From Clostridia bacterium (lineage in GTDB: Bacteria > Bacillota > Clostridia > Oscillospirales > Acutalibacteraceae), in assembly GCA_017475765.1 (NCBI GenBank), contig JAFVEY010000013.1:1-55518 (forward strand): a stretch of DNA of 55,518 nt, read 5' to 3'. The number at the start of each line of letters is the position of its first letter. The first letter of the stretch is position 1. Positions 52,730 through 55,335 of the stretch are shown piece after piece. The notes under the pieces were generated by a model. The model had not been told where the DNA came from and did no database searches. It saw nothing but the letters and a program-made list of their open reading frames with translations. The position numbers and the translations under genes were made by a program.

Positions 52730-54025
52730 TCAAGCCTCGAATACAGCTTTGAATGCCTGATCAAGATCTTCGATGATATCATCAACGTGCTCTGTACCGA
52801 TGGAAAGACGGATGGTGTTCTGTCTGATACCCTGATCCTCAAGCTCTTCCTCTGTGAGCTGTGAATGTGTTGTTGTTGCAGGATGGATAACAAGAGATTT
52901 AACATCGGCAACATTCGCGAGAAGTGAGAATATCTCAAGGCTGTCGATAAACTTATGAGCTTCTTTCTGACCGCCCTTGATCTCGAATGTGAATATGCTT
53001 GCGCCGCCGTTCGGGAAGTATTTCTCATACAGCGCATGATCCGGATGATCCGGGAGTGACGGATGATTAACCTTCTCAACATACGGGCTGTTTGCGAGAT
53101 ATTCAACAACCTTCTTTGTGTTCTCAGCATGACGATCCAGACGGAGTGAAAGTGTTTCTGTTCCCTGGAGAAGCAGGAATGCTGCAAACGGAGAGATGGA
53201 AGCACCTTCATCACGAAGAAGAATTGCTCTGATATATGTTACGAAAGCTGCAGGACCAACAGCATCAGCAAAGGAAATGCCGTGATAGCTGGGGTTAGGA
53301 GCTGCGATCGGCGCATATTTGCCGCTTGCTTTCCAGTCGAACTTACCGCTGTCAACGATAACGCCGCCGAGAGTTGTACCGTGGCCGCCGATGAACTTTG
53401 TAGCAGAATGAACCACGATATCAGCGCCGTGCTCGAACGGGCGGATAAGGTACGGAGTACCGAATGTGTTATCAACAACAACAGGAAGACCATGCTTGTG
53501 AGCGATCTCTGATATAGCGTCGATATCCGGAATATCGCTGTTCGGGTTGCCGAGAGTTTCGATGTAAACAGCCTTTGTGTTCTCTTTGATAGCGCCCTCT
53601 ACTTCTTCCAGGTTGTGAGCGTCAACGAAAGTTGTTTCGATTCCGAACTGGCTGAGCGTATGAGCGAGGAGATTGTAGCTGCCGCCGTAAATAGTCTTCT
53701 GAGCGACAATGTGATCGCCTGCCTGTGCAAGAGCCTGAATTGTGTAGGTGATAGCTGCTGCACCTGAAGCAACTGCAAGAGCTGCAACGCCGCCTTCAAG
53801 AGCTGCGATTCTCTTTTCAAAAACATCCTGAGTGGAGTTGGTAAGTCTGCCGTAGATATTGCCGGCATCACGGAGACCGAAACGGTCTGCTGCGTGCTGT
53901 GAGTTATGGAAAACATAAGAAGTTGTTGCATAAATCGGAACGGCTCTTGAATCGGTTGCCGGATCCGGCTGTTCCTGACCTACATGAAGCTGAAGTGTTT
54001 CAAATCTATAATTCTTGTTGCTCAT
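52730..54025 (-). CDS. metY: O-acetylhomoserine sulfhydrylase / cysteine synthase-like (MetY)
   Basis: A 431-residue PLP enzyme that uses O-acetyl-homoserine (or -serine) and sulfide to make homocysteine (or cysteine). N-terminus FETLQLHVGQEQPDPATDSRAVPIYATTSYVF; PLP lysine in VVHSATKFIGGHGTTLGGVI; IRLSIGTEHVDDIIEDLDQAF at the end. Length and the ~60-residue insert after the lysine separate MetY from MetB/MetC. ATG with GAGG eight bases upstream. The leader contains a strong promoter, a Cys-rich short reading frame and competing helices, so cysteine supply probably controls it. Confidence 0.94.
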   Translation of the reverse strand: MSNKNYRFETLQLHVGQEQPDPATDSRAVPIYATTSYVFHNSQHAADRFGLRDAGNIYGRLTNSTQDVFEKRIAALEGGVAALAVASGAAAITYTIQALAQAGDHIVAQKTIYGGSYNLLAHTLSQFGIETTFVDAHNLEEVEGAIKENTKAVYIETLGNPNSDIPDIDAISEIAHKHGLPVVVDNTFGTPYLIRPFEHGADIVVHSATKFIGGHGTTLGGVIVDSGKFDWKASGKYAPIAAPNPSYHGISFADAVGPAAFVTYIRAILLRDEGASISPFAAFLLLQGTETLSLRLDRHAENTKKVVEYLANSPYVEKVNHPSLPDHPDHALYEKYFPNGGASIFTFEIKGGQKEAHKFIDSLEIFSLLANVADVKSLVIHPATTTHSQLTEEELEDQGIRQNTIRLSIGTEHVDDIIEDLDQAFKAVFEA

Positions 54026-54042
54026 AATAAATACCTCTTTCT

Positions 54043-54057: not shown

Positions 54058-54123
54058 TGTTAAATTAAGTTAGTTTTATTCTAAAATATGGGAAGTTATC
54101 CCCATTTGTTTAATTGTCAGATA

Positions 54124-54192
54124 TCAACAGCAACAACAGCGCATTCGTCCATTGCGGAAATTGTGGCGCAGAGATTTTTGAATAATTGACAT
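54124..54192 (-). CDS. Cysteine-rich leader peptide upstream of metY
   Basis: A 22-residue reading frame on the minus strand: ATG at 54192-54190, stop TGA at 54126-54124. It begins MSIIQKSLRHNF and ends GRMRCCCC, i.e. four Cys codons (TGT TGT TGC TGT) directly before the stop. AAGGAGG lies nine bases before the ATG and a perfect promoter stands 53 bases upstream, so it is almost surely translated. Poly-Cys upstream reading frames that regulate sulfur genes by ribosome stalling are described in actinobacteria; this is the same layout in front of a homocysteine/cysteine synthase gene. Function is inferred. Confidence 0.8.
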   Translation of the reverse strand: MSIIQKSLRHNFRNGRMRCCCC

Positions 54193-54244
54193 AGGCAAGC
54201 GCCTCCTTTAATTTATTGAATACCTATATGTTTGGTATGGATTG

Positions 54245-54273
54245 AGTATACACCATAATTCCCTCATTGTCAA
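54245..54273 (-). promoter_or_regulatory. Promoter of the leader peptide/metY unit
   Basis: Minus strand TTGACA (54273-54268), 17-base spacer, TATACT (54250-54245). Transcription would begin near 54238, giving a ~210-base leader. Between 54274 and the mrp terminator nothing else is seen. Confidence 0.85.
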
Positions 54274-54432: not shown

Positions 54433-55278
54433 TTATTTGCCGGCAACGATTTTTTCAAGCCTGTCGGCAGCCTGTGCCGCATATTCGTTTTCAAGACTTT
54501 CAATTCTGCCTTCATCGCAGGCCTTTGCGTTTTTCGGATCAATAGGAAGACGGGCGAGAATTTCCAGTCCGTATTCGTCAGCGACCTCCTCCAGCCTGCT
54601 TTCGCCGAAAGGATAGTATTTCTTTCCGCAGTCGGGACAGACAAAGCAGCTCATGTTTTCGATCATTCCCAGTATCGGGATATTCATCATCTTTGCCATT
54701 CTGACAGCCTTGCCGACGATCATTGAGACAAGTTCCTGCGGAGATGTCACGATGACAATACCGTCAAGCGGCAAAGACTGGAATACCGTCAGCGGCACAT
54801 CGCCTGTGCCAGGCGGCATATCGACAAACATATAATCAACATCATTCCAAATGACATCGCTCCAGAACTGTTTTACCGTTCCGGCAAGTATGGGGCCTCT
54901 CCAGATGACAGGGTCTGTGTCATTTTCAAGAAGAAGATTGACAGACATGATGTCAATACCGCCGCAGGTGGTCACAGGGAAAAGACCGTCCTCGTTTCCG
55001 GTTGCTTTTTGGGTAATGCCGAAAGCCTTCGGGATGGAAGGACCTGTGATATCAGCGTCAAGAACGGCGGTGTGATATCCTTTTCTGCTGAACATGACAG
55101 CCATCAGGGAAGTGACGATAGATTTGCCGACTCCTCCCTTTCCGCTGACGATGCCTATTACCTTTTTCACAGAGCTGTGGACATTCAGCTTTTCGTGCAT
55201 ATCCTGCACCTGACCGCCTTCTTTTGATGAGCAGCTCACATTACAGGAGCCGCAGTCATGGGTACATTCTTCGGTCAT
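54433..55278 (-). CDS. Mrp/NBP35-type iron-sulfur cluster carrier ATPase
   Basis: A 281-residue P-loop ATPase. An N-terminal Cys cluster (CTHDCGSCNVSC, residues ~5-16) recalls NBP35. Deviant Walker A GIVSGKGGVGKSIVTSLMAVMF, DADITGPSIPKAFG, FVDMPPGTGDVPL and the conserved CxxC in SCFVCPDCGKKYYPFGES follow. Assembles or carries Fe-S clusters in the cytoplasm. ATG at 55278 has AGGAG eight bases upstream. It fits the iron-rich theme of the window but lies 40 kb from the iron locus. Confidence 0.92.
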   Translation of the reverse strand: MTEECTHDCGSCNVSCSSKEGGQVQDMHEKLNVHSSVKKVIGIVSGKGGVGKSIVTSLMAVMFSRKGYHTAVLDADITGPSIPKAFGITQKATGNEDGLFPVTTCGGIDIMSVNLLLENDTDPVIWRGPILAGTVKQFWSDVIWNDVDYMFVDMPPGTGDVPLTVFQSLPLDGIVIVTSPQELVSMIVGKAVRMAKMMNIPILGMIENMSCFVCPDCGKKYYPFGESRLEEVADEYGLEILARLPIDPKNAKACDEGRIESLENEYAAQAADRLEKIVAGK

Positions 55279-55335
55279 TAAAAACACTCCTATTTAATAT
55301 TATTATTAAATCAGCAAATTATATTCTGCTTTGTT

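Follow-up and report, generated by a model that had tools for sequence, protein, structure and literature searches.

The short reading frame upstream of metY in this Clostridia genome belongs, to judge from alignments and profile searches, to a conserved and so far unnamed family of leader peptides of about 18 residues. These leaders mark sulfur-assimilation and methionine-uptake genes, which a ribosome pausing on the leader probably switches on. The family itself, its genomic context, a nearly fixed CGA codon, an in-frame enrichment of Cys codons and a complementarity between leader and downstream gene start were all computed. For the 55,518-nt stretch of DNA analyzed here (the window), we consider the chances about even that its leader is a member of a family of attenuators in which a pausing ribosome senses sulfur amino-acid shortage and opens the downstream gene. 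What is new here is that a conserved peptide is combined with an almost invariant codon and wired in two different ways; leader-peptide attenuation is already known.

The locus lies on the minus strand of the window. A -35 hexamer identical to consensus (TTGACA, 54268..54273) is separated by 17 nt from a -10 hexamer one base off consensus (TATACT, 54245..54250), together matching 11 of 12 sigma-70 consensus bases; the promoter described as perfect in the initial annotation is thus perfect only in its -35 half. At a 9-of-12 threshold the scan yields two promoter-like sites where chance alone would give 1.8, so the match is no more than suggestive. About 50 nt downstream of the -10 hexamer is the leader ATG (54192), with a Shine-Dalgarno sequence (AAGGAGG, 54202..54208) ending 9 nt 5′ of it, an arrangement that speaks against a leaderless transcript of the mycobacterial type. 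The frame (54124..54192) encodes MSIIQKSLRHNFRNGRMRCCCC in 22 codons and closes with TGA (54126-54124), 98 nt before the metY ATG (54025). We confirmed the AAGGAGG, the 22-codon frame ending Arg-Cys-Cys-Cys-Cys-stop and this spacing, all as initially annotated. The downstream gene had also been named correctly: its product matches TIGR01326, O-acetylhomoserine aminocarboxypropyltransferase, with 639.9 bits (cut-off 495.1; metY, 52730..54025), behind the Shine-Dalgarno sequence AAAGAGG (54034..54040).

Within the leader frame, alignment of 167 leaders places the conserved core RHNFRNGRM at residues 9-17 (54142..54168). The Arg codon preceding its last Met is CGA (54145..54147), and the frame continues into four Cys codons, TGT TGT TGC TGT (54127..54138), of a kind enriched in frame among relatives. 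A degenerate Arg-Cys4-TRR pattern occurs at two places in the 2.32-Mb genome, the other of which ends in TGG and has no stop. We found no intrinsic terminator on the minus strand between 54020 and 54320, and no match to any Rfam family at gathering scores across the window.

The family core, MxxxFxxL[LV]RxN[FYW]RxGRM, was found in 167 distinct leaders by alignment and strict motif, with a range of Clostridia and some Treponema. Our starting set consisted of 80 metY loci, the best 80 of the matches listed and chosen for metY. A leader with the same core is present in 34 of them, 32 by the strict motif plus L003 and L004, which carry K for R two residues before the Asn and stand outside the 167. 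A relaxed pattern applied to the other 46 loci returned only three matches, at a chance-like level (L016, L073 and L078). A protein profile built from 30 leaders was used in six-frame searches of genomes, in draws that overlap. It matched 42/150 genomes of the same family at E ≤0.05 (the weakest probably by chance), 76/394 of the order draw and 30/391 of the class draw (both at E ≤0.001), and in a phylum-wide draw of 398 genomes only the window's own. The window leader scores E 3.6e-8 against this profile, which includes it. Twelve weak same-family matches (E 0.006-0.05), some of them probably chance, were left out, and seven further matches fail the strict motif (L211, L212, L219, L226, L227, L233 and L235); L226 carries GWRCGRM before metY. 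The family is easily found by profile, and annotation of such regulons can follow.

Leader length is nearly constant. The codon 11 positions before the core Asn is ATG in 69/89 leaders, and the stretch from the first to the last Met spans 18 residues in 140/166, a length that our start-codon rule slightly prefers; in the window it is 17. Eight Treponema/Spirochaetaceae loci among the 80, including T. porcinum (L012), carry the leader. At L012, L019, L020, L025, L031, L040, L057 and L081, metY is 86-88% identical to that of the window and has the leader attached. The leader and metY look like a unit that was transferred horizontally. In the literature searched, outside which most subscription papers lie, the core peptide strings matched only an unrelated ENFRNG, and a search for leader peptides of metY-type genes gave nothing relevant.

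We examined the genes behind the leaders through the best tblastn match within 1.7 kb downstream. Across the 167 leaders this is metY in 140 cases, MetQ in 16, MetN in 4, an SsuA-like protein in 3, an SsuC/TauC-type (sulfonate/taurine) permease in 2 and a sulfate-binding protein in 1, with 1 leader lacking a match; the transporter reference proteins came from loci of the leader set. A sulfur or methionine gene likewise follows 134 of the 135 leaders that were found by profile and satisfy the strict motif. NCBIfam curated cut-offs are exceeded by metY and the sulfate-binding protein; MetQ (133.9 bits), MetN (362.8), the SsuA-like proteins (47.1 and 105.2) and the permease (83.0, TauC) score below them. 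The window's own genome contains a second family leader, MKFFRDILRHNWRNGRM-stop, which is tail-less and scores E 0.004 against the profile (L232, frame about 1157-1210; G000:C67:67155-67205). Its distance to the downstream ORF, which encodes a sulfate-binding protein (TIGR00971, 380 bits), is 74 nt. With 166/167 leaders preceding sulfur-type genes, the leader marks sulfur-assimilation and methionine-uptake genes, and the initial reading of the frame as a leader before metY is supported by its conservation. The only leader of the 167 without a matched sulfur gene (L186, core at about 1055) is followed by a terminator-like hairpin and, by reading, a putative ThiF-like ORF.

In Bacillota, genes of these kinds are controlled by the SAM-I riboswitch (RF00162) and the T-box (RF00230). 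We rejected known RNA elements of this sort as an explanation for the region before metY, there being no Rfam match to them in the window or at 60 metY starts. These 60 loci were drawn from the 80, with 20 of them carrying the leader and 40 lacking it; the Rfam search returned tRNAs, tmRNA and one Gut-1 RNA, none of them at a metY start; the Gut-1 RNA (RF01706) lies at L011:2113-2188, about 190 nt 5′ of the leader start. A search for a SAM-I riboswitch in the window's own genome, whose assembly is 95% complete, gave no match. The methionine and sulfur genes of this genome therefore need another sensor, for which the window leader is a candidate. Eight T-box matches were found in the same genome, all away from the window. 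One of them directly precedes cysE (L142, G000:C48:166739-167508) and has a specifier that we read as UGC, which would place cysE under cysteine control by a separate device.

The strongest constraint within the core falls on a codon rather than on an amino acid. Where Arg precedes the last Met, it is encoded by CGA in 160 of 163 leaders and by CGC in the other three, while four of the 167 have a Val or Leu codon in its place. Leaders found by profile have CGA at this Arg in 135/135 cases; in seven of eight Treponema-type leaders it is replaced by CGC, GTC, GTG or CTC. By comparison, all six Arg codons occur at the two remaining core Arg positions, where CGA is used in 21/167 and 9/165 leaders, and CGA makes up 2.7% of the 1014 Arg codons in the metY genes downstream of the first 89 leaders. 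All 167 leaders have ATG for the last Met, a residue that the motif required. If one synonymous codon is preferred across leaders this divergent, selection would be acting on the codon instead of the amino acid, which would be rare in bacteria, and wobble decoding would be tied to gene control.

In the window's own genome we found tRNA-Arg genes with the anticodons ACG, CCG, TCT and CCT, of which only ACG and CCG serve CGN codons. A TCG anticodon was not found in this 95% complete assembly, in which 1 of 41 Rfam tRNA matches was left uncalled by ARAGORN. The leader CGA is therefore presumably read by an inosine-34 tRNA-Arg. Decoding of CGA by such a tRNA is described in the available portion of PMC3711424, and an excerpt of PMC6301793 reports that CGA-CGA pairs are inhibitory in yeast. 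We also considered whether CGA is kept for base pairing and rejected this, as CATTCG, the complement of CGAATG, occurs downstream of 2/167 leaders against a mean of 1.9 for shuffled words. The shorter CATTC is enriched downstream (20 vs 7.4), and the AUG part of CGA-AUG may therefore be base-paired there.

What follows the core varies. In 49/167 leaders the stop comes straight after GRM (TGA in 41, TAA in 8), whereas 118 have a tail, of which 99 contain Cys within the first eight codons and 19 do not. In-frame TGY accounts for 123/382 tail codons after GRM, compared with 8/382 and 7/382 in the other two frames (89 leaders). This enrichment indicates that the Cys codons are selected as codons, yet they are an optional add-on. 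The initial annotation's emphasis on Cys codons is thus supported by the in-frame enrichment, but poly-Cys is not the defining trait. With 49 tail-less leaders, and with RxN[FYW]RxGRM and CGA as the constant parts, sensing of Cys-tRNA alone cannot be the general mechanism.

The leader RNA is also complementary to the start of the gene it precedes. In the window, the minimum-free-energy fold predicts a start-masking helix on the minus strand. Its 5′ strand (54119..54136) comprises TTGTTGCT (54136-54129) and GATATCT (54125-54119), and its 3′ strand (54015..54036) comprises AGGTATT (54036-54030) and AGCAACAA (54022-54015). Thus TTGTTGCT, within the Cys codons, pairs with AGCAACAA, which spans metY codons 2 to 4, and GATATCT pairs with AGGTATT, overlapping the metY Shine-Dalgarno sequence. 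A different switch had been suggested at first, between CGCTGTT (54141-54135) and AACAGCG (54061-54055). This seven-base complement does exist, as an alternative pairing that uses the same Cys codons as the best fold, but no AACAGCG partner was seen in the closest relatives examined (L003, L004 and L106), and we discarded it as a conserved switch.

Modelling a ribosome on the GRM or Cys codons of the window leader opens metY nucleotides +4..+12 (0.26 to 0.56-0.70), leaves the Shine-Dalgarno sequence unopened (0.59 free vs 0.41-0.60 stalled) and slightly closes the metY start codon (0.54 to 0.43-0.47), with stall masks that were shifted by one base (leader start taken as 54191, true 54192). In this model the metY start opens only in part. 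The window locus (L100) reaches a rank of only 0.27 in a single-locus swap test.

Across the family, we compared leader nucleotides -18..+20 around the last Met with positions -18..+12 of each leader's own gene start, using the 135/167 loci whose gene start lies 45-130 nt after the leader Met. The mean pairing energy is -11.09 kcal, against -8.80 for permuted partners (z -12.2; none of 2000 permutations as good), where partner permutation ignores sequence relatedness. The core alone gives z -5.0, the tail z -11.0, tail-less leaders z -4.3 and an upstream-leader control z -0.6. In some leaders the NFRFG codons complement the Shine-Dalgarno sequence, and in others the codons just after GRM do so. 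A core of the form TTYCG[TC]TT accompanies the Shine-Dalgarno sequence GAAAGGAA in 15/19 cases, compared with 8/55. In the folding model, mean Shine-Dalgarno accessibility over the 135 loci is 0.36 for the free RNA and 0.54 when a ribosome covers GRM, with 69 loci rising and 7 falling by at least 0.15. A longer fold gives 0.36 to 0.51, and an equal mask placed upstream leaves it at 0.36. The opening is broad over ribosome positions in this ordinary class (0.45-0.53 from -30 to +9) and unpeaked at GRM.

A subclass of 16 leaders, with tails of the form ..[SADT]R, is wired in another way. Most are predicted to form a long-range helix between the tail and a strand that doubles as the left arm of a terminator. 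The subclass was hand-picked: 19 leaders match the tail pattern, and L193, L217 and L220 were left out. The first folding covered 15 of the 16 (L038 had no T-run by that search). At L070 and L153 the T-run first used is probably not that of the terminator, and L153 was redone with a later one; subsequent models used 14 loci and then 12 (without L038, L070, L166 and L175). In the 12 loci modelled together the T-run lies 117-130 nt after the leader Met, and in the absence of a ribosome the terminator arm shows a local pairing of 0.14. Pairing in these models rises to 0.63 or 0.85 with the Met codon in the P site (footprint edge at +12 or +15, respectively), to 0.34 or 0.62 with AUG in the A site, and to 0.17 or 0.37 with the P site at -6; it stays at or below 0.20 for P sites at -9 and before, and drops again with the ribosome about ten codons past GRM. 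At L166 and L175 the terminator forms in either state, and L050 goes from 0.28 to 0.71 in one model and stands at 0.79 in both states in another.

As modelled, the subclass switches between antiterminator and terminator at almost the ribosome position that matters in the ordinary class, and stalling immediately beyond GRM would turn its genes off. This led us to reject a simple "arrest at GRM" with one sign, under which the terminator subclass would respond oppositely to the ordinary class. Cys codons are scarce in this subclass, where a modelled stall at those codons would favour termination. The first tail codon is Cys in 2/16 subclass leaders vs 68/102 elsewhere; for the first four tail codons the figures are 3/16 vs 93/102, a comparison affected by the selection pattern, which fixes tail positions 3-4. 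By eye, ACCTCTTTC at L079 (about +70..+78, counted from the leader Met) appears complementary to the metY Shine-Dalgarno sequence GAAAGAGGT, which may add a further level of control in the terminator subclass.

From these data we infer a pause, its trigger and the direction of control. A ribosome would translate the ~18-residue peptide and slow at the conserved codon pair CGA-AUG near its end, which is followed by Cys codons in many members. In most members the leader RNA near CGA-AUG is predicted to pair with the ribosome-binding site of the next gene, and a paused ribosome would expose that start and turn the gene on; in the subclass, ribosome position near the same site would choose between antiterminator and terminator. 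The decisive pause would fall before the last Met joins the chain, when CGA occupies the P site and AUG stands in the A site. The signal would be a shortage of charged tRNA-Met, to which the Cys tail of the ordinary class would add charged tRNA-Cys. Conservation of the amino acids suggests that the nascent chain slows the ribosome as well.

A bolder form of this explanation, to which we give clearly less than an even chance, is a switch that reads both codon and peptide and serves an entire sulfur/methionine regulon of Clostridia. In it, the conserved chain and a P-site CGA (inosine-34, I.A wobble) would make decoding of the next AUG, and then of the Cys codons, acutely dependent on the supply of charged Met- and Cys-tRNA, with the same ribosome position wired to start unmasking in most lineages and to a terminator in others. 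We infer tRNA shortage as the trigger, and I.A wobble as sensitising AUG decoding. Shortage of tRNA-Met is favoured because a pause with AUG in the A site fits both classes with the same sign, on, within model error, whereas a pause one codon later fits only the start-unmasking class. This agreement in sign hangs on the exact stall position and the assumed footprint, since in the subclass the terminator is already favoured once Met occupies the P site. Also speaking against the attenuator explanation, a single Met codon would be an unusual sensor. The unopened Shine-Dalgarno sequence of the window, the breadth of the opening over ribosome positions in the ordinary class and the Treponema-type leaders that lack CGA count against it as well.

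Alternatively, the RxNFRxGRM chain, inside the tunnel, could sense a metabolite such as methionine, SAM, cysteine or another sulfur compound and arrest at GRM with no codon-level starvation. We regard this as unlikely, if worth serious consideration. The peptide is conserved through synonymous change, with all six Arg codons at the middle Arg, and its length to the last Met is fixed, both as expected of an arrest peptide; so is the TGA that ends 41/49 tail-less leaders, TGA being also the stop of the arrest peptide TnaC. Yet an arrested ribosome holding Met in its P site would unmask the start in the ordinary class and promote termination in the subclass. A single ligand would then drive the same genes in opposite directions, and neither the single synonymous CGA nor the Cys enrichment after it would be explained.

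Distinctly improbable, in our estimate, is a plain poly-Cys attenuator resembling those of mycobacteria, in which low Cys-tRNA stalls the ribosome on the Cys codons and these alone control metY. This was the mechanism first proposed for the window, and part of it survives: Cys codons are enriched in frame after GRM, those of the window themselves pair with the metY start in the predicted fold, and they are sited where a modelled stall helps to unmask the start and are scarce in the subclass of opposite sign. As the sole general mechanism it fails on the tail-less leaders and the 19/118 tails without early Cys. Nor do short frames at the 46/80 metY loci without the core supply it, none of those listed having three Cys in a row; five of these loci have two or three scattered Cys (L036, L043, L068, L071 and L073). 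The T-box with its apparent UGC specifier before cysE in the same genome further argues against it. That the product is a small protein or modified peptide acting in trans (by metal or thiol binding, or as a precursor peptide), its position before sulfur genes reflecting operon membership only, is very improbable: mostly Cys-containing tails, a conserved core and the strong Shine-Dalgarno sequence in the window would suit it, but 49/167 leaders are tail-less, one Arg codon is nearly fixed at a synonymous site, the complementarity to the downstream start is locus-specific, and the leader peptide matches nothing in NCBIfam or Pfam up to E 10, in a search whose filters may lose so short a query.

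The attenuator reading that we prefer shares features with several known systems. Translational attenuators of the ErmC/ErmB type are drug-induced: a hairpin masks the start of the downstream gene until a ribosome pauses on the leader. Release of a start by a paused ribosome is predicted here too, and the family shares with these attenuators a leader complementary to the downstream ribosome-binding site; the peptide is different, and the signal is nutrient-linked, as judged from gene context. Unlike a classical transcription attenuator, the window leader has no intrinsic terminator, a feature present in the subclass among its relatives. Conservation of the peptide beyond the codons sensed is shared with nascent-chain arrest peptides. 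Among these, TnaC and plant CGS1 (MTO1) are conserved and control amino-acid metabolism, CGS1 being a methionine-pathway gene and TnaC being catabolic and working through Rho. We know of no sequence relation of the GRM leaders to TnaC or CGS1.

Poly-Cys leader peptides of actinobacterial cys genes are reportedly the subject of Canestrari et al. (2020, Mol Microbiol). An excerpt of PMC13236596 refers to Canestrari et al. 2020 on such leaders, and attenuation is proposed for them in the accessible part of PMC1262725. As presented there, they resemble the window leader in having a short upstream frame with Cys runs near the stop, before sulfur genes; they differ from the leaders described here, which have a constant RxNFRxGRM core with CGA, optional Cys, their own Shine-Dalgarno sequence and a range of Clostridia and Treponema. 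The window does share one trait with the mycobacterial type, a Cys run just ahead of the stop in a short leader frame, but what the family conserves is not that run, as it would be in an attenuator of that type. A leader frame with Cys codons is also known from uORFC-8-2 before cysS in Rhodobacterales, for which the portion of PMC8632094 available proposes stalling on low Cys-tRNA. In contrast to the window leader, uORFC-8-2 is there said to regulate cysS by transcriptional read-through, in alpha-proteobacteria (PMC8632094).

Upstream of the leader promoter, the window contains a minus-strand gene (54433-55287) for a Mrp/ApbC-type iron-sulfur cluster carrier ATPase, which scores 337.5 bits against NF041136, under the cut-off of 450. 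Just 3′ of the -10 hexamer is an operator-like palindrome, ATACC-N9-GGTAT (54220..54238, minus strand). A perfect TACC..GGTA occurs upstream of 17/165 leaders compared with 0/165 shuffled regions, and with at most one mismatch the counts are 57 and 20, respectively. In relatives L116, L152, L155, L159 and L162, a palindrome pair flanks the -35 hexamer (ACCTATTGACA.GGTAGG-like). Beside L136, L138 and L139 we noted by reading a divergent, putative Rrf2/IscR-like gene.
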